DNA of 64,000 nucleotides. It comes from an uncultured Anaerolineae bacterium (lineage in GTDB: Bacteria > Chloroflexota > Anaerolineae > Aggregatilineales > Phototrophicaceae). The stretch lies in NCBI GenBank assembly GCA_938022205.1, contig CALIEB010000007.1, positions 62,001 to 126,000 on the forward strand, read 5' to 3'. Of this stretch, positions 2,937-52,537 are shown one piece after another (positions within the stretch are counted from its first letter, which is position 1; the number at the start of each line of letters is the position of its first letter). A program made the translations under genes and the position numbers. The notes beneath the pieces were generated by a model. That model had not been told where the DNA came from. It searched no databases and saw only the letters and a program-made list of their open reading frames with translations.

Positions 2937-4364
2937 ATGAAGAGACAAACTTGGCATTGGCTTATGGTGATGGTATTGAGCGTGACGTTTGTACCTGTCG
3001 GCGCGCAGGATAACACGGGCGATTGTAGCCGTTTTGCGCTTAATCCCGACAGCGCGTGGAGCGACTTTAAGTCCGAGCTAGAAGAGGGCGGCATCCCGCT
3101 GGATTTGTGGGGCGGGATGGTCAATGGCGAAGGCGTGCAGCTTGAGGATTACGGCATCACGCCCGAAGAACTCAACGCCTTTTTTGAAGCCAAGCGCGAT
3201 AGCCTTGACAATTTGCTGGACAAAAACCCGCTGAAGCCTTACATCGACCGCGCTTTGAGCATCATGGGCAGCTATGGCTTGGGTGAAGGCGACATTGCGC
3301 CGCTTTTGGCGGTGCGCGATAACGTGAGCGCGTTGTTTGAGGCGTTGGGCGCACGTGGCTTAAGCGCAGACCGCGCCGACGCTTTCTTGAGCCAAATCGC
3401 CCCATTAGTGCGCGAAGCCAGCGACAAAGGACTGCTCAAATATGGTGCGGTCGGCGAGCTAGACGCGGAGCTGAAAAAGGTTAACGGCAGCCTTACGCCC
3501 GAATTTTTGCGCCAGTTCTGGGGCAATCTCGACGAATTTGCGCAGCTGATGCTTGCTAACGACGAAGACCCCGAAGCCGTTGCAGCGTTGATGGCGCGCC
3601 TGAACAACTTCAAAGAGAGCAGTAAGGTCACCGACCGCTTGCTACGCAACTTTGACATCGAGAGCGAAAAGGCGCGGCTCGAAAAGTACGGCGTGCCGTC
3701 CACCGCGCTCAAGGAGCTGGTTGGCGAAAATAAGACCCCCGACGACGTGGCGGGCTGCCTCGAGCAGATGGGGTTGGTGGACGCTGCGCTGCTCAAGGGC
3801 TTGTTTGGCGGCTTGGATGACTTGTCGCTGGACGATTTGAACGCTTTCTATGCCGACGAAATGGCGGAGTTTCTCGCGCTTAGCGGGCTGTCGCCAGACG
3901 ATTTGAGCGCGCTCTACAGCATGGACGAGGACGAGCTGCGCGCCTTTCTCGCCGAAAACTACGACAGCGCGTACGCGGATTGGCTGTTGAGCCGCCTGCT
4001 TGATGCTGATTTCTTCGCACTGGGCAAGCTCGGCGAGCTGGACGAAAACGTTGGCGCGCTGGCACTAGACAGCTTAGACGAGTTAGACGATAGCGATCTC
4101 AACGCGCTCTACGGCGATTTCTTTGCCGCACAGGCTCTATCTGAACTGGCGGATTTGGACGACGAGGCGTTTGCGGCATTGTTTAACGACCCTGAAGCGT
4201 TTGACGCTTGGTTTAACGACGCATTCGGTGACTTTTTCGCTGGTGACGACAATGGCGATGACAGCAACAGTGACCAAAGCGGCGGTGGTGACGACCAAAG
4301 CGGCGGTGGTGACGACCAAAGCGGCGGTGGTGACCAAAGCGGCGGTGGTGACGACGACGAATAG
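2937..4364 (+). CDS. Secreted acidic, repeat-rich protein of unknown function
   Basis: 475 aa, signal peptide MKRQTWHWLMVMVLSVTFVPVGAQ; D/L-rich helical repeats and C-terminal GGGDDQS tandem tail. Confidence 0.75.
   Translation: MKRQTWHWLMVMVLSVTFVPVGAQDNTGDCSRFALNPDSAWSDFKSELEEGGIPLDLWGGMVNGEGVQLEDYGITPEELNAFFEAKRDSLDNLLDKNPLKPYIDRALSIMGSYGLGEGDIAPLLAVRDNVSALFEALGARGLSADRADAFLSQIAPLVREASDKGLLKYGAVGELDAELKKVNGSLTPEFLRQFWGNLDEFAQLMLANDEDPEAVAALMARLNNFKESSKVTDRLLRNFDIESEKARLEKYGVPSTALKELVGENKTPDDVAGCLEQMGLVDAALLKGLFGGLDDLSLDDLNAFYADEMAEFLALSGLSPDDLSALYSMDEDELRAFLAENYDSAYADWLLSRLLDADFFALGKLGELDENVGALALDSLDELDDSDLNALYGDFFAAQALSELADLDDEAFAALFNDPEAFDAWFNDAFGDFFAGDDNGDDSNSDQSGGGDDQSGGGDDQSGGGDQSGGGDDDE
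4272..4353 (+). repeat. In-frame tandem repeat, 21-bp unit gaccaaagcggcggtggtgac (about 4 copies)
   Basis: Direct reading of the sequence; encodes (DQSGGGD)n. Confidence 0.9.
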
Positions 4365-4397
4365 CCCCGCGCTCGCTCATTAAAGACGGCAAAGACG

Positions 4398-4525: not shown

Positions 4526-6103
4526 ATGGTGTTTGCATCGGATTGGTTGGCGTTCCACGCCGACCGCACGCCTGACAAGCTGGCGGCAATTGACCAAGCT
4601 ACTGGCAGACGGTTTACTTATGCCGAGCTTAACGAACGCACGACACGCCTCGCCACCTTCCTACGTGAGGCGTGGGACGTGCAAACAGGGGACCGCGTCG
4701 CTATTCTGGCGAAAAACTGTGTGGAATTCTTCGAGTTCCAGTTTGCTTGCGCCAAGCTGGGCGCGATGATGTTGCCGCTTAACTGGCGGCTCGCCGTGCC
4801 GGAGCTGCTGTTCATCCTCAACGATGCCGAAGCAAAAGGCATCGTCTACGACGCGGCATTTGCCGAACATATCCCCGCACTGCGTGACGGCAGCACGGCG
4901 AAGCTGCTGCTGCGGCTGGATTTTGGCGCGCCGCCTGTCGATGACAGCCTGGCTTACGAAGACGCGCTGGCGCGCTACGCGCCCAACGTCGTCATGTCAC
5001 CTGCCATTAGCCACAACACGCCCATGACCATCATGTACACTGCCGGCACAACCGGACTGCCCAAGGGCGTGCTGATTACGCACGGCATGACCTTCTGGAA
5101 CATGGTCAACATCACCACGCCTACCGGGTTGTCATACAACACGGTACACTACGCCGTGCTGCCGCTCTTCCATACCGGCGGGCTAAACCTCTACGCCAAT
5201 CCGGTCTTTCATCATGGCGGCACGAACATCATCGCCCGCGAGTATGACCCCGGGCTCACGCTCAAGACGCTGACCGACCCCGAGCTGGGCGTAACGCACT
5301 TCTTCGGCGTGCCAGCCATTTACTTGTTCTTGAGCCAGCACCCGGACTTTGAAAAAGCAGACCTCAGCCACATTCAATCATGGGGCTGCGGTGGCGCGCC
5401 TATGCCCGCCGCGCTGCTCAAGACCTATGCTGATAAGGGCTACATCGTTCAGCTGGGCTTTGGCATGACCGAAACCAGCCCAACCGTTTTTCTGATTGAC
5501 CGCCGCCGCGCGCTGGTCAAGCCCACTAGTGTCGGGCGACCGCTGTTGCACACCCGCGTGCGCGTCGTCGACGAAAATCGCCAAGATGTCCCTATCGGCG
5601 CAATCGGCGAGGTCATCGTCGGCGGCGAGAACATCACGCCCGGCTATTGGCGGCGTGACGAAGCCAACGCCAAAACCTTCTTCACCGACGAGTACGGCGT
5701 GCGTTGGGTTCACAGCGGCGACGCGGGCATCATGGATGACGACGGCTGCATCTACATCGTCGACCGCTACAAGGACATGTACATCAGCGGCGGCGAAAAC
5801 GTCTACCCCGCCGAAGTCGAGCAAGTGCTGTTCAACATCGAAGGCGTGGCCGATGTTGCCGTGATTGGCGTGCCGCATGAACGCTGGGGCGAAACGGGCA
5901 TGGCGATTGTTGTCAAGAAGCCCAACGCCGAGCTAACCGCTGAGCAAGTCATTGCGCATGCCCGTCAGCATCTCGCCAAGTTCAAAGTGCCGTCACACGT
6001 CGTGTTTGTCGAGAGCTTGCCGCGCAATGCCGCCGGCAAAGTTCTCAAGCGCACGCTGCGCGAACAGTACAGCGGCGAGCAAAGCCTGCTTAAGGACAAT
6101 TGA
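4526..6103 (+). CDS. AMP-dependent acyl-CoA synthetase/ligase
   Basis: YTAGTTGLPKGV and YKDMYISGGENVYPAEVE motifs; C-terminal PRNAAGKVLKRTLRE; RBS aaggggg before ATG 4526. Confidence 0.9.
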   Translation: MVFASDWLAFHADRTPDKLAAIDQATGRRFTYAELNERTTRLATFLREAWDVQTGDRVAILAKNCVEFFEFQFACAKLGAMMLPLNWRLAVPELLFILNDAEAKGIVYDAAFAEHIPALRDGSTAKLLLRLDFGAPPVDDSLAYEDALARYAPNVVMSPAISHNTPMTIMYTAGTTGLPKGVLITHGMTFWNMVNITTPTGLSYNTVHYAVLPLFHTGGLNLYANPVFHHGGTNIIAREYDPGLTLKTLTDPELGVTHFFGVPAIYLFLSQHPDFEKADLSHIQSWGCGGAPMPAALLKTYADKGYIVQLGFGMTETSPTVFLIDRRRALVKPTSVGRPLLHTRVRVVDENRQDVPIGAIGEVIVGGENITPGYWRRDEANAKTFFTDEYGVRWVHSGDAGIMDDDGCIYIVDRYKDMYISGGENVYPAEVEQVLFNIEGVADVAVIGVPHERWGETGMAIVVKKPNAELTAEQVIAHARQHLAKFKVPSHVVFVESLPRNAAGKVLKRTLREQYSGEQSLLKDN

Positions 6104-35574: not shown

Positions 35575-35750
35575 AAGCTCTCCTTCGAACGCGCGTTGAT
35601 GCCTCAAGTATAGTAGCTCTGCCGTTTGCCCGCAAGCAAGGCTTTAAGCGAGCCTTGTCGTGTGCGCCCCTTGCGCTGTGTGCCATGCTCTTTGACAATA
35701 GGCAGTATCACGCTTACTTACTTGATGATTATACACGCAAAGGATACTCA

Positions 35751-37448
35751 ATGCTCTCTGACCTTGCCATTGCTCAAGCGGCGTGCCTGCTGCCCATCCA
35801 CGACATTGCCGCCAAAATGGGGCTTAGTGCCGACGATTACGACCTCTATGGCAGCCCCTACATCGCCAAGCTGCGGCTCTCGCTGTTGGAACGCCCCGCG
35901 CCCGCTCGCACCGCCAAGTACGTCGACATCACCGCTATCACGCCCACGCCGCTAGGGGAGGGCAAATCCACCACGCTGGTTGGCTTGGGGCAAGCGATGC
36001 AGCACATCGGCAAGCGCAGCATCGTCACCATTCGCCAACCCTCGATGGGTCCCACCTTCGGCATTAAGGGCGGCGCAGCGGGCGGCGGCTACGCGCAGGT
36101 CGTGCCAATGGAGCCATTCAACCTGCATCTCACGGGTGACATTCACGCCGTTGCCGCCGCCAACAACTTGCTAGCCGCCATGCTCGACAACAAGCTCATG
36201 CGCGGCAACCCACTCAACATCGATCCCTATAGCATTACGTGGAAGCGCGTGGTGGACATGAACGACCGCGCCTTGCGCAACATCGTCGTTGGCTTAGGCG
36301 GCAAGGACGACGGTGTGCCGCGCCAAACGGGCTTTGACATCGCCGTCGCCAGCGAGGTCATGGCAATTCTCGCGCTGGCGACCTCGCTGCAAGACCTGCG
36401 CGCACGGCTTGGGCGCATTGTCGTGGGCTTCACCTACGACAAGCAACCTGTCACTGCCGAGCAGCTGGGCGCAGCGGGCGCAATGGCGGTCTTGCTGCAA
36501 GAAGCGATGCGTCCCACGCTCATGCAGACGCTGGAGAACACGCCCGTCTTGGTACATGCGGGTCCCTTTGCCAACATCGCGCACGGCAATAGCAGCGTGA
36601 TTGCTGACCTTATCGCTGTGCGTTATGCCGATTATGTGCTGACAGAGTCGGGCTTTGGCGCGGACATCGGCGCGGAGAAATTCTTCAACATTAAGTGCCG
36701 CGTGAGCGGTCTCAAACCGGACGCGGCGGTGCTAGTCGTCACGGTACGCGCCCTCAAGGTACACAGCGGCAAGTATCGCGTTGTGGCGGGCAAGCCACTG
36801 CCCACCGAGCTGACGCAGCCCAACGTGGCGGATGTTGAGGCAGGCGCGAGCAACCTTGTGCGCCACATCGCCAACTTGAAGAAGCAGGGCGTTACGCCTG
36901 TCGTTGCCATTAACGCTTTTGCCGATGACCACCCCGACGAACACGCCGCTATCCGCCGTATCGCCGCTGAAGCGGGCGCGCTGGGAACGGCGGTGTGTCG
37001 TCACCATGCCGAAGGCGGCAGGGGTGCGTTGGAACTCGCCGAGCTGGTCGTGCAAGCGTGCGAACAGCCTAACGCTTTCCGCTTTCTCTACGCGCTTGAG
37101 CAGCCGATTAAGGACAAAATCAGCGTCATTGCCCGTGAGATTTACGGCGCGGATGGCGTGAGCTACGAGCCGCTCGCCGAACGGCAGCTGCGCGACTATG
37201 AGCAGAGCGGCTACGGCAATTTGCCCATTTGCGTGGCGAAAACGCACCTCAGCTTTAGCCATGACCCCAACTTAAAGGGTGCGCCCAGTGGTTTCACGCT
37301 GCCCATTCGTGAGGTGCGCGCCAGCGTCGGCGCGGGCTTTATCTATCCGATTGCCGGCGATGTGCGCACCATGCCGGGTTTGCCGTCGCACCCGGCTGCC
37401 GAAGCGGTCGACCTCGCCGAAGACGGCAGCGTCGTCGGCTTGTTCTGA
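35751..37448 (+). CDS. fhs: Formate-tetrahydrofolate ligase
   Basis: YVDITAITPTPLGEGKSTTLVGLGQ; RQPSMGPTFGIKGGAAGGGYAQV; ESGFGADIGAEKFFNIKC. Confidence 0.95.
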   Translation: MLSDLAIAQAACLLPIHDIAAKMGLSADDYDLYGSPYIAKLRLSLLERPAPARTAKYVDITAITPTPLGEGKSTTLVGLGQAMQHIGKRSIVTIRQPSMGPTFGIKGGAAGGGYAQVVPMEPFNLHLTGDIHAVAAANNLLAAMLDNKLMRGNPLNIDPYSITWKRVVDMNDRALRNIVVGLGGKDDGVPRQTGFDIAVASEVMAILALATSLQDLRARLGRIVVGFTYDKQPVTAEQLGAAGAMAVLLQEAMRPTLMQTLENTPVLVHAGPFANIAHGNSSVIADLIAVRYADYVLTESGFGADIGAEKFFNIKCRVSGLKPDAAVLVVTVRALKVHSGKYRVVAGKPLPTELTQPNVADVEAGASNLVRHIANLKKQGVTPVVAINAFADDHPDEHAAIRRIAAEAGALGTAVCRHHAEGGRGALELAELVVQACEQPNAFRFLYALEQPIKDKISVIAREIYGADGVSYEPLAERQLRDYEQSGYGNLPICVAKTHLSFSHDPNLKGAPSGFTLPIREVRASVGAGFIYPIAGDVRTMPGLPSHPAAEAVDLAEDGSVVGLF

Positions 37449-37465
37449 TGCTATACTAAAGCAAG
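37386..37465 (+). repeat. 80-bp direct repeat, copy 1 (3' end of fhs plus downstream promoter-like sequence)
   Basis: Identical to 38165-38244 (tcgcacccggctgccgaagcgg...tgatgctatactaaagcaag). Confidence 0.97.
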
Positions 37466-37484
37466 ACAATTATGGAGAAACAGG

Positions 37485-37712
37485 ATGGTGACCTTGCATG
37501 ATGTGTTAGCATATGCTAAGCAACTGTCGGTTATAGAGCGTAAGGAGCTTATCAAGTTTTTGTTGGACAGTATCGACACAGAAGCGCAGGACACAGAAGA
37601 ACAAGAAGAGGAGAGCATCTTGTTTTTTGCAGGTGTGGCGCGGCACTTGACCGACAGTGAAGACCCGCAGGTTGCCATAAACCGCTTGCGCGATGAGTGG
37701 CACAACCCATGA
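37485..37712 (+). CDS. Putative antitoxin of a PIN toxin-antitoxin pair
   Basis: 75 aa; LHDVLAYAKQLSVIERKELIKFLLDSI N-terminus typical of addiction-module antitoxins; stop overlaps downstream PIN start (ATGA). Confidence 0.7.
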   Translation: MVTLHDVLAYAKQLSVIERKELIKFLLDSIDTEAQDTEEQEEESILFFAGVARHLTDSEDPQVAINRLRDEWHNP

Positions 37713-38152
37713 ATGCCGATGACCTGACAGCAGTAAAACGGCTCTATGTCGACACAGCACCGTTTATTTACTTTACCGAAGCGCGGCAGGGTTATGGCGA
37801 AAAGATGTACGAGATTATAAACATTGCCGTCGTAAACCGCATTCAACTGGTGACTGCTGCGATAACACTAACTGAAGTTCTTGTAAAGCCGCTACAAAAC
37901 AACGACGCGGCACTTGTTGAACAATACCGTCGCTTGTTTTATCGGACCAAAAATCTGTTGGTTGTCCCAATAACTGCTGCTATAAGCGAATCCGCTGCGC
38001 GTCTAAGAGCGCGTTATGCCCTCAGAACGCCTGATGCGCTTCATGCTGCTTCAGCAATACAAACACAGTGTGATGCGTTGTTAGCCAATGACAGTGTCTT
38101 TCAACGTTTGCAAGAACTTCTCATCATTCTGTTAGATGATTGGAATGCTTAG
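37709..38152 (+). CDS. PIN-domain protein (VapC-like toxin)
   Basis: RLYVDTAPFIYFTEA...TLTEVLVKPL...YALRTPDALHAASAI...ALLANDSVFQRL. Confidence 0.85.
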   Translation: MNADDLTAVKRLYVDTAPFIYFTEARQGYGEKMYEIINIAVVNRIQLVTAAITLTEVLVKPLQNNDAALVEQYRRLFYRTKNLLVVPITAAISESAARLRARYALRTPDALHAASAIQTQCDALLANDSVFQRLQELLIILLDDWNA

Positions 38153-38164
38153 TTGGTCGAAGCA

Positions 38165-38244
38165 TCGCACCCGGCTGCCGAAGCGGTCGACCTCGCCGAA
38201 GACGGCAGCGTCGTCGGCTTGTTCTGATGCTATACTAAAGCAAG
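38165..38244 (+). repeat. 80-bp direct repeat, copy 2
   Basis: Identical to 37386-37465 by direct reading. Confidence 0.97.
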
Positions 38245-38268: not shown

Positions 38269-39471
38269 ATGCTCGTTAAAGACCACGTGCTAGTCATCGG
38301 CGCGGGACCCGCCGGTATCGCCAGCGCGGTCGCGCTTAAGCGTGCGGGCATCCCCTATGAAGTGGTTGACCGCGCCAACACCGTTGCGGCAACTTGGGAT
38401 AGCCTCTATCCGTCGCTGCGGCTGAACACGACGCGCTTTTTTTCGCACCAAGTAGGCGCACGCTTCCCCTTGTGGTACGGCATTTTCCCGACGGGCAAGC
38501 AGTATCATGCCTACTTGCTGCGCTATGTCGCCAAGCACAAGCTCAACATTCGACTGGGCGTGACGGTCTACGACGTTGCGCCGGAAGGTGACAGCTGGCG
38601 CGTCCACACGTCGGAGGGCGTGTTTGCCTATCCAGCCGTCATCAGCGCGACAGGCATTTTTGGCAGCCCGGTCATGCCCGACATCGACGGTATGGCGGCA
38701 TTTAGCGGGCGTGTCTTCCACGCTCATGACTTTCGCCATCCGCACCAAGTGACCGGGCAGCGCGTGCTAGTGGTCGGCACGGGACCCAGCGGCGTGGACA
38801 TTGCCGTTGCCAGCGCGGACACCGCCGCCGCCGTCTACTTGGGCGTGCGCAGTGGCGTGAGCTTACAGCGGCGTTATCCCTACGGGTTGCCCAAGCACGC
38901 TTGGCTCATGCTGTTTGAGCGGCTGCCGCGCGCGTGGTGCAATCGTCTCATGCGCCTGACGACGCTAGGCTATCCGGAGGCGGCGCGCTATGGCTTGACC
39001 CCGCCACAAGGCAAGGAGGCACTTACCGCCTATCAAGGGCGTGAGCTGCTCGACGCGGTCAAGGCGGGGCGCGTGCAGCCTGTCGCCGCGCCTGTGCGCT
39101 TTTGCGAGCGCAGCGTGCTGCTGGCGGACGGGCGCGAGCTGGCGGTTGACACGGTCATCATGGCGACAGGCTACCGTCCCGTGCTGCACGATTACCTCAA
39201 AATCCCCATGCAGTACAGCGCGAGCGCGTGGGAAAGCCCCGCTGCGTGCGATTGGGAAATCGGCGCGAACGGGCAGCGCGGCTTTCCGATGCTTGACCGC
39301 AGCCAGCACCCCAACGGGCGCGAAGTGTTGGGCTATCGCGGGCTGTATCTCGTCGGTGTGCATTACAAGGGCAAGGGCGCAATGTACAACTTTAACGTCG
39401 AAGCGCGCATCGCCGCCGAGCAAATCGCAGCACAGCTGGCGGCTAGGGCTGATAAATCAGCGTCACGTTGA
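38269..39471 (+). CDS. Flavin-containing monooxygenase-like NAD(P)/FAD oxidoreductase
   Basis: VLVIGAGPAGIASAVALKRAGIPYEVVDR; second dinucleotide site VLVVGTGPSGVDIAV; FHAHDFRHP; IMATGYRP. Confidence 0.88.
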   Translation: MLVKDHVLVIGAGPAGIASAVALKRAGIPYEVVDRANTVAATWDSLYPSLRLNTTRFFSHQVGARFPLWYGIFPTGKQYHAYLLRYVAKHKLNIRLGVTVYDVAPEGDSWRVHTSEGVFAYPAVISATGIFGSPVMPDIDGMAAFSGRVFHAHDFRHPHQVTGQRVLVVGTGPSGVDIAVASADTAAAVYLGVRSGVSLQRRYPYGLPKHAWLMLFERLPRAWCNRLMRLTTLGYPEAARYGLTPPQGKEALTAYQGRELLDAVKAGRVQPVAAPVRFCERSVLLADGRELAVDTVIMATGYRPVLHDYLKIPMQYSASAWESPAACDWEIGANGQRGFPMLDRSQHPNGREVLGYRGLYLVGVHYKGKGAMYNFNVEARIAAEQIAAQLAARADKSASR

Positions 39472-49753: not shown

Positions 49754-52537
49754 TCACCCGCCCAGCAGCTCGTCGGGGGTAGGGGTGGGGCGGTCGCCCA
49801 GCAGGTAGGCTAGGGCACGCCGCGCGTCATCCAGCACGCCCGCCGCGTCGCAAATCTCTCGCCCGCGCTGATAGTCCTGCTGTGCCAGCGGCAGCGCGTC
49901 CGCATCGCCTAGCAAGGACAAGCCCGCCCGCGCCAGCCCGCGCACGTAGTACGCCTCATAATTCTGCTCGGTTTGCTCGAGCAAGGTATCGGCATGGGCA
50001 ATGGCGGCTTGGAAGGCTTGGCGCGCTTCGTCGGGCGCGGCGTGGCGCAGTGCTAGCACGCCGTGCCAGCAGCAGGCTGCGTGGCGGTTTTCCGCCACGT
50101 CGTGCGCTTGCGCCGCGCGGATGACGACGAGGGCTTCTTCCCCCTTGCCTGCATACGCCAACGCCTGTGCCAAATACGTTCCGCTGTAGCTCATCCCGCG
50201 CGGTGATTGCACCTCTTCGGCGATGTGCAGCGCGTCGCGCAGGTGCTGTAGTGCCTCTTCGTGGCGACCCAAGCGCGACAACGCAACCCCCAGATTGCCG
50301 AGATTGATGCCCTCGTTGCTGCGGTTTTTGGTCTCGCGGCTGATGGCAAGAGCCTGCTCGCAGTACGCGATGGCCCGCGCCACTTGCCCTAAGTCTTTGT
50401 ACGCAACCCCCAGATTGCCGAGATTGATGCCCTCGCTGCGGCGGTTTTTGGTCTCGCGGATGATGGCAAGAGCCTGCTCGTAGTACTCGATGGCCCGCGC
50501 CACTTGCCCTAAGCGGCGGTACGCAATGCCCAGATTGCCCGCGCTGATGCTCGCCAGCTGGTTGTCGCGCAGCTTGCCCTGCAGCCGCTCGTGCAGGGCG
50601 CGCACGCGGTCGGCGTAGCCCCACAGCAGCAGGTAATCGAAATCAATGTCTCTCAAGATGTCGGCGGCGGTGTCGTAGTCGCCCAGCGCGCAGCGATGCT
50701 CGAACTCCTCCAGCTGCGGCTGCAGGTCGTCCAGCGTCTTCCACGCCGCCTTTGGCTTGCGCTGTTCCCGATGATAGCGCGCCATGCGCGCGTGCAACAC
50801 ATAGCGCGTGAACGGTGGTGTGTCTGCATCTGCATCGCCAGAGCGGTCAGGCAAGTCTGCAGAACTGCCCGCAGGCAGGCGCGACAGGAGGTCGTCGCGG
50901 TCGTAGGGGTGAAGGCTGTAGGTGCGCGCCGCGCGGTTGAAGGACAGGAAGCAGCTCGACACCAGCCGCTCGAGCAGCTTGGGCAGCAGCGTCACGTCGA
51001 GGTAGGGCGCGAGCAGGTATTCGAGCATGGGCTGGGTAGCCGCTTGTCCTGCCACGGCGGCCCCCTGCAGCACCATGACGAAGGCAGGCGGCAGGCTATC
51101 GATGACGCGGCGCACGATGTTGGCGACAACTTCCCCCTTGAACAGCTCAGGGTCGAGCAGGTCATCCAGCGTGCGCGTCGCGCCGCCCCGCAAGTAGCCG
51201 ACCAACGCCTCCAGCGCGCGCGGCACGTAATCCACGCGCTGCCCCCACGCCAGCAGCGGCGCGTCGTCGGGCGGCAGCGCGCCGTCTTGGTCTAGCTGGC
51301 GCATGAAGGCGACGGCTTCGGCGGGCGGCAGCCCTTGCTCCAGCCGAACGCGCGTCTCGTGAGCCTTGAGCAGGTTATCGTATGGCACGTCGTAGCGGCT
51401 GGTGACGACCAGCGTCACGTCGCTCCCTTGTCGCTCCAGCAGGGCTTCGATGAAGGCGCGCAGGCTCTCGTCTTTGAGCATGTGCGTGGTCTCGTCTTGC
51501 AGCGTCTCAAGGTTGTCGAGCAGCATGACGTAGTGGCGCGTCCCGACGGCTGCCAACAGCGCGTTGACCTTCTGTTTGACGGGCAGGGCGGGGTCTTTGA
51601 GGGCGGCACCCAGCCTCTCGTCGTCGGGCAAGAAGCGCAGGAAAGCCTCCAGCACAGTGTCTAGCCCGAAGCCTGCCGTTTCGTCGACTTTGAAGTAGGC
51701 GATGCCGCCGTAATCCCCGTCGCGGGCGAAGTCGCCCAGTGCCTTGCACGCCAGTGCCGTCTTGCCGACACCGCCGCGCCCGTAGATGCTGACCAGCGGC
51801 TTGCGCGCCTTGAGGGCGTTGGCGATGTGTGCTTGCTCTTGCGCGCGGTCGTGGAACGCCCCGTCGTCGAAGACTTTGGGCGGCTTGCCAAGCACGCGCG
51901 GAATCTCACGCAGCGACGGCGTAGGCGGCAGCGCGCCCGCCCGCAGCGCGCTCGTCTCGGCGGCACGCACCTGCGCCGGCGTGGGCTTAATCAACGCTTC
52001 GCGCGCCAGCTTAGCAACTTCTAAATCCCGTGCCGCCTTGCTCAGCTCTAGGGCGGCTTCTAAGGCGAACTGCTCAAGGTTGTCAAAGAATTTGACGACG
52101 TGCTTTTGGCAAAGCTCTTCCTTGAAGCGTTTAAGCCGTTCCGCGTTGTCGCCTGTCTCAACATCCATCATCTTCCACGCCGCGTTGTCTCCGACGACGA
52201 ACAGCAGCAGCGGCAGCCCGCGCTCCACCGCCCAGCGATATTCCCACTCGGTGATGCTCGTCACGCCGTCGCCCGCGTGGCGGCTGCCATCCTGCTTGGT
52301 GTAAACCACGCTGGCGGGCGGCGCGTAGCCGTAGCGGTAGGCGTACACGCCGACGAACAGGTTAGCCCCACACAGCGCGTCGTAGCAAACTTGCAGGGCG
52401 TTATTGGCACTGGCGTTGAAGTGTTCCATCGCCAAAGGGTGCATGCCAGCTTTCATGATGAGTTTAATAAGCTGCTCGCGGTATGGTTCAAGGTCGCGCG
52501 AGGTGGAGCTTGTGAACACGTTGAAGTAATCTGCCAT
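49754..52537 (-). CDS. DUF4062 - STAND (NB-ARC-like) NTPase - TPR protein
   Basis: N-terminal FNVFTSSTSRDLEPYREQLIKLIMKAGMHPLAMEHF...VGVYAYRYGY (DUF4062); VSIYGRGGVGKTALACKAL (Walker A), YVMLLDNLE (Walker B), C-terminal TPRs. Confidence 0.88.
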   Translation of the reverse strand: MADYFNVFTSSTSRDLEPYREQLIKLIMKAGMHPLAMEHFNASANNALQVCYDALCGANLFVGVYAYRYGYAPPASVVYTKQDGSRHAGDGVTSITEWEYRWAVERGLPLLLFVVGDNAAWKMMDVETGDNAERLKRFKEELCQKHVVKFFDNLEQFALEAALELSKAARDLEVAKLAREALIKPTPAQVRAAETSALRAGALPPTPSLREIPRVLGKPPKVFDDGAFHDRAQEQAHIANALKARKPLVSIYGRGGVGKTALACKALGDFARDGDYGGIAYFKVDETAGFGLDTVLEAFLRFLPDDERLGAALKDPALPVKQKVNALLAAVGTRHYVMLLDNLETLQDETTHMLKDESLRAFIEALLERQGSDVTLVVTSRYDVPYDNLLKAHETRVRLEQGLPPAEAVAFMRQLDQDGALPPDDAPLLAWGQRVDYVPRALEALVGYLRGGATRTLDDLLDPELFKGEVVANIVRRVIDSLPPAFVMVLQGAAVAGQAATQPMLEYLLAPYLDVTLLPKLLERLVSSCFLSFNRAARTYSLHPYDRDDLLSRLPAGSSADLPDRSGDADADTPPFTRYVLHARMARYHREQRKPKAAWKTLDDLQPQLEEFEHRCALGDYDTAADILRDIDFDYLLLWGYADRVRALHERLQGKLRDNQLASISAGNLGIAYRRLGQVARAIEYYEQALAIIRETKNRRSEGINLGNLGVAYKDLGQVARAIAYCEQALAISRETKNRSNEGINLGNLGVALSRLGRHEEALQHLRDALHIAEEVQSPRGMSYSGTYLAQALAYAGKGEEALVVIRAAQAHDVAENRHAACCWHGVLALRHAAPDEARQAFQAAIAHADTLLEQTEQNYEAYYVRGLARAGLSLLGDADALPLAQQDYQRGREICDAAGVLDDARRALAYLLGDRPTPTPDELLGG
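50281..50520 (-). repeat. Two tandem 120-bp repeats inside the STAND gene (TPR units)
   Basis: 50281-50400 and 50401-50520 align without gaps with about 10 mismatches by eye. Confidence 0.93.

Follow-up and report, generated by a model that had tools for sequence, protein, structure and literature searches.

A short PIN-type toxin-antitoxin (TA) pair stands behind fhs, the gene for formate--tetrahydrofolate ligase, between two identical copies of an 80-bp sequence that contains the end of that gene. We are inclined to think that the pair is foreign and was inserted after fhs by one-sided homology, that the 80-bp tail of the gene was duplicated in the process, and that the ancestral order was fhs, the repeat (R) and then the monooxygenase-like gene that now follows the second copy. 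The features of the locus are as follows, with positions counted in the window, by which we mean the whole 64,000-nucleotide stretch of DNA that was analyzed:

35751-37448, plus strand: fhs, formate--tetrahydrofolate ligase, the intact target gene whose 3' end is duplicated (PF01268, E 2.6e-253)
37386-37465, plus strand: R1, the proximal copy, made up of the last 63 bp of fhs (stop TGA at 37446-37448) and 17 bp of intergenic DNA
37449-37457, plus strand: extended -10-like box TGCTATACT in R1, ~27-30 bp before the antitoxin start
37466-38164, no strand: unique AT-rich insert of 699 bp, 46.8% GC
37485-37712, plus strand: antitoxin, 75 aa, its N-terminus weakly similar to TIGR02574 (addiction-module component), under the model cut-off
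37709-38152, plus strand: PIN-domain toxin, 147 aa (PF01850, E 1e-15; alignment and frame check)
38165-38244, plus strand: R2, the distal copy, an exact repeat that begins 12 bp past the PIN stop
38228-38236, plus strand: the TGCTATACT box again, within R2, 32 bp upstream of the monooxygenase start
38269-39471, plus strand: flavin-dependent monooxygenase-like gene, 3' of R2 (PF13738/PF00743)

The initial annotation had described perfect 80-bp direct repeats here, and the two copies do match without a single mismatch at those coordinates, 779 bp apart from start to start. The sequence occurs in these two copies only across the whole 3.02-Mb assembly, and because exact 60-mers are common to only 16 kilobase-bin pairs in 2.54 Mb, an 80-bp repeat arising by chance is excluded. 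The first copy had also been said to encode the last residues of Fhs and the stop codon. This is borne out by the Fhs proteins of relatives, which align as far as the same C-terminal residue, so that R1 is the native end of the gene. (For the start of fhs we took the ATG at 35751 since the domain begins there; the listed ORF opens at 35655.) The DNA between the copies, originally characterized as about 699 bp of AT-richer sequence, has the GC content given above against ~62-64% in fhs and the monooxygenase gene, and the GC3 of the two TA genes is 0.59 and 0.41 (0.41 for PIN) compared with 0.75-0.76 in the flanking genes. The same annotation was right that the insert holds antitoxin and PIN genes only and that neither integrase nor transposase accompanies them: the ORF list and a profile search reveal just the two TA ORFs in the insert, and no recombinase lies nearby. 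Two other repeats were observed in the window, a tandem pair of 120-bp units, 92% alike, at 50281-50520, and GACCAAAGCGGCGGTGGTGAC as short in-frame repeats at 4272-4373.

The inserted genes look like an intact PIN TA module, given the PIN domain, the retention of the acidic positions of the PIN family in the toxin (by alignment), and the homologous antitoxin-PIN pairs found as adjacent genes elsewhere in the family and order. Another 10 genomes from the family or order encode antitoxin homologs, mostly next to PIN genes. The start codon of the PIN gene overlaps the antitoxin stop (ATGA). In gene order (antitoxin first), overlap, PIN family and acidic residues the pair resembles type II PIN (VapC-like) systems; it differs from them in its antitoxin, which matches no Pfam family and reaches TIGR02574 only below cut-off. 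PIN relatives were sought in phages and viral contigs and none were found, four homologs on cyanobacterial plasmids have no flanking repeats, and a search of solved structures by sequence gave no match.

Homologous TA loci have a TATAAT-like box 23-34 bp 5' of the antitoxin start, and the box in R1, at a distance seen in these pairs, is a probable -10 box. Thus, the final 17 bp of the repeat may be derived from the TA unit, as its promoter, the other 63 bp being fhs coding sequence. The monooxygenase gene, however, also has such a box, 32 bp upstream in R2, and the antitoxin and this gene may each owe a promoter box to one of the two copies. Since a two-hexamer consensus promoter scan of the fhs-TA locus found nothing, the promoter reading draws on position and motif.

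The layout at fhs recurs in the same genome (G000). In a direct-repeat search that covered 2.54 Mb (84%) of the 3.02-Mb genome, only two further low-GC inserts bracketed by a gene end emerged besides repeat genes and tandem paralogs:

Contig C15 (locus L109), 3733-3860 and 5257-5384: 128-bp exact repeat, equal to the 3' end of an SGNH-hydrolase gene
Contig C1 (locus L160), 487985-488041 and 489627-489684: the terminal 57 bp of a sulfatase gene, decayed, with 84% identity over ~58 bp

The C15 insert (1396 bp, GC 0.47) holds one gene, again of SGNH type, with 7 bp between its stop and the far copy of the repeat. A conserved kinase gene in convergent orientation has its stop codon in that copy, and because alignments with kinase orthologs from the whole family extend to the final residue, this copy marks the ancestral junction and places the insert on the near side. 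Such a geometry matches what insertion with target duplication would predict and supports it. No relative checked for an empty site has the SGNH gene conserved in place. The C1 insert (1.6 kb, GC 0.49) carries a gene for 486 aa that matched no Pfam family. Neither the sequence nor the length of the repeat is shared among the three cases, and the target genes are unrelated. Three other low-GC stretches with repeats (C2 at 110 kb, C1 at 180 kb and C1 at 84 kb) were rejected as tandem paralogs, and several long exact repeats at C7 156919-160976 (L204), all with the same spacing of 2979 bp, probably reflect a recent tandem gene duplication.

A search for other TA cassettes whose flanks duplicate the 3' end of the upstream gene, as suggested in the initial annotation, was extended to ~30 further homologous PIN loci with their flanks. 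A similar arrangement was found at 2 of them, although these recurrence counts are small and L055 is the best match to the query:

L055 (genome G015), 1152-1311 and 1951-2110: PIN pair after the exonuclease III gene (xth), with a ~160-bp duplicate of its end 3 bp past the PIN stop
L076 (genome G326), 580-955 and 2486-2930: PIN pair with a diverged copy of the 5' portion of a hen1-like gene on either side (a name taken from reading the translation)

By the same measure, none of 141 intervals in other loci of the relatives scored >= 40, and 3 of 1500 random intervals of G000 did so. The L055 repeat comprises the xth tail, a terminator-like stem, a promoter box and the antitoxin start (~35 bp of the antitoxin gene), and its copies differ by a silent change and a V to I substitution, with the stem kept. 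They look like two functional alleles and not like one duplicated sequence. The part of the antitoxin in the second copy and these differences together suggest either recombination between two alleles or a duplication followed by a deletion. A tandem duplication of the whole TA pair at G015 was rejected, as the repeat is limited to the xth tail, the promoter and the antitoxin start. At three loci with same-direction inserts (window 38152-38165; L109 3860-3868; L055 1947-1951) the far copy starts 3-12 bp past the stop of the last inserted gene.

How might the arrangement have come about? An incoming piece of DNA, arriving by transformation or conjugation, would have carried a stretch identical to the fhs end together with the TA genes, and would have integrated by homology on one side only. 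The piece could have recircularized and then entered by a single crossover, or one of its ends could have been joined illegitimately at the start of the 80-bp tract of the recipient. fhs would thereby retain a complete 3' end, with the displaced end left on the far side, and neither neighbor would be broken because the -10-like box in each copy could serve the antitoxin and the monooxygenase gene, respectively. Recombination between R1 and R2 could later delete the TA pair cleanly, and antitoxin addiction would select against such deletants. The ancestral order with a single copy of the repeat is one that we infer, because a comparison of the fhs and monooxygenase loci of relatives found no shared adjacency and hence no single-copy empty site: the nearest relative, of the same genus, has an fhs only ~71% identical, with fhs and the monooxygenase gene on different contigs, and the monooxygenase homolog in that genus (67% identical) does not adjoin fhs. 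Exact empty-site and junction patterns were also sought in viral contigs and none were found. In favor of insertion are the exact repeat, the low GC of the insert with the low GC3 of the PIN gene, the two further occurrences of the layout in 2.54 Mb and its presence at other PIN loci. The genome also encodes a ComEC homolog, which is not in itself proof of competence. Against the one-sided route, it needs a donor that already carried the TA pair next to fhs.

In what we regard as the second, considerably less probable explanation, the TA pair already stood beside fhs; a 779-bp unit (fhs tail, promoter and TA) would have undergone tandem duplication, or template switching would have copied part of it, and the second TA would then have been deleted down to its promoter, which would now drive the monooxygenase gene. 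The -10 box of the repeat, positioned like those of the homologous TA pairs, speaks for such a history, as the box in those loci belongs to the TA unit and the repeat at fhs may therefore contain TA sequence; so do the ~35 bp of antitoxin gene within the second copy at G015. Tandem duplication and deletion would fit the fhs and G015 loci about as well as insertion does. It calls for two steps, however, one of them a tidy deletion, and it poorly explains C15, where a neighboring gene has its native end at the distal copy. Insertion by one-sided homology is in our judgment the likeliest origin and duplication with deletion the next; neither is proven.

Other origins have less in their favor. The initial annotation likened the layout to an att-type insertion that regenerates the 3' end of its target, and the part of this idea that stands is foreign insertion of the TA pair with regeneration of the fhs end, still the best reading. 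The version that involves a recombinase is not supported, as none lies nearby and the repeats and genes of the three cases are unrelated. It is very improbable that R1 and R2 are attL and attR of a decayed integrative element that targeted fhs through a tyrosine recombinase and lost everything except the TA pair: targeting of a 3' end with regeneration of the gene does resemble att sites, and the genome encodes three tyrosine recombinases, but none of the three is on the fhs contig, the other inserts sit at unrelated genes between repeats that share neither sequence nor length with the one at fhs, and the repeated fhs end was found downstream at 0 of the 29 fhs loci tested in relatives. An integron gene cassette was rejected, the fold of the repeat being not unusual (z -1.5) and the boundary, on reading the sequence, showing no GTTRRRY core. 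We think it very improbable that a staggered break ~80 nt wide was filled in while a foreign fragment was end-joined, which would be a true target-site duplication. Such breaks would account for exact repeats whose length varies from one unrelated gene to another, and two of the three cases in this genome are of that kind, yet Ku was not found in the genome and the allele-like copies at G015 do not look like one duplicated sequence. Least probable of all is an assembly artefact, whether a strain mixture or a k-mer overlap joined twice. The assembly is a draft of 42 contigs and some residual doubt stays; an assembly fault is nevertheless an unlikely source of the repeat. In three instances two contigs overlap at their ends by exactly 141 bp (k = 141), so k exceeds both 80 and 128 and both copies of the shorter 80-bp repeat should be spanned by assembly words. 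Neither does the repeat length equal that overlap, the lengths differ among the cases, the C1 copies are no longer identical, and at C15 a real gene has its stop in the far copy. No gap runs of N occur in the genome stretches examined, one contig having been left out.

What would be new here, if it holds up, is that the layout recurs, both at several gene ends of a single genome and beside related TA pairs. As a speculation that we hold only tentatively, short AT-rich cassettes in this bacterial lineage, PIN TA pairs among them, may repeatedly enter at the 3' ends of unrelated genes through a single shared mechanism that needs no transposase and leaves 60-160 bp of the tail as a second copy, preserving the host gene and able to hand a promoter to the next gene. 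If true, this might be how solitary chromosomal TA modules enter in general, and it bears on how such modules reach chromosomes without a mobile element; TA modules could then enter in the manner of restriction-modification systems, with repeats that make the insertions cleanly reversible. This genome offers both an apparently fresh event, with identical copies, and an older, decaying example. The signature to look for in closed genomes is an AT-rich module beyond which the tail of the preceding gene appears a second time.

Precedents for the proposed route exist. In E. coli, when incoming DNA was homologous only to the 3' end of lacZ, part of the lacZ end was present twice in 56 of the 60 clones analyzed, the duplication measuring 109-950 bp in the sequenced clones, an outcome explained by recircularization and single crossover (PMC3240628). 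For the displaced 3' ends in T6SS immunity arrays of Vibrio, homology-facilitated illegitimate recombination has been proposed (PMC5361080). As at fhs, an insert is followed by the displaced end of a resident gene, and the length of the duplication varies. Those are laboratory or effector-immunity cases, in contrast to the fhs locus with its two identical tracts, from which, being identical, the route cannot be read off.

The arrangement as a whole is best read as an instance of insertion with long target duplication, a transposase-free mode of entry that has been described before but seldom catalogued. The initial annotation knew of no standard insertion class of this kind, yet one was described in 2000 for restriction-modification genes of Helicobacter pylori (Nobusato et al. 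2000, as cited in PMC3874152, PMC3031569 and PMC1643837), and according to a review some restriction-modification systems can insert with target duplications that are long and variable, around 100 bp (PMC3874152). The long bracketing repeats of variable length that define the class are found here too (80 bp exact, 128 bp and about 58 bp). The H. pylori insertions share with ours an addiction-type pair, the lack of a transposase and direct repeats of variable length, around 100 bp, which are host DNA there and, at least in the 63 bp of fhs coding sequence, here; they differ in that the cargo here is a PIN TA pair and not a restriction-modification system, the host is unrelated, the repeat consists of a gene 3' end plus a promoter-like box, and no empty-site genome was found among the relatives compared. 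Nor is a TA cassette with such flanks without precedent, for a TA module between identical 152-bp direct repeats has been published from Microcystis aeruginosa PCC 7806 (PMC7935541). With these restriction-modification and TA precedents, the fhs locus is not a new class. The Microcystis module is likewise a chromosomal type II TA pair that follows a gene and is flanked by identical long direct repeats; unlike the fhs pair it is ParE/ParD-like, and its repeat contains an inverted repeat, starts 14 bp past the upstream stop and lies 120-147 bp from the TA genes.
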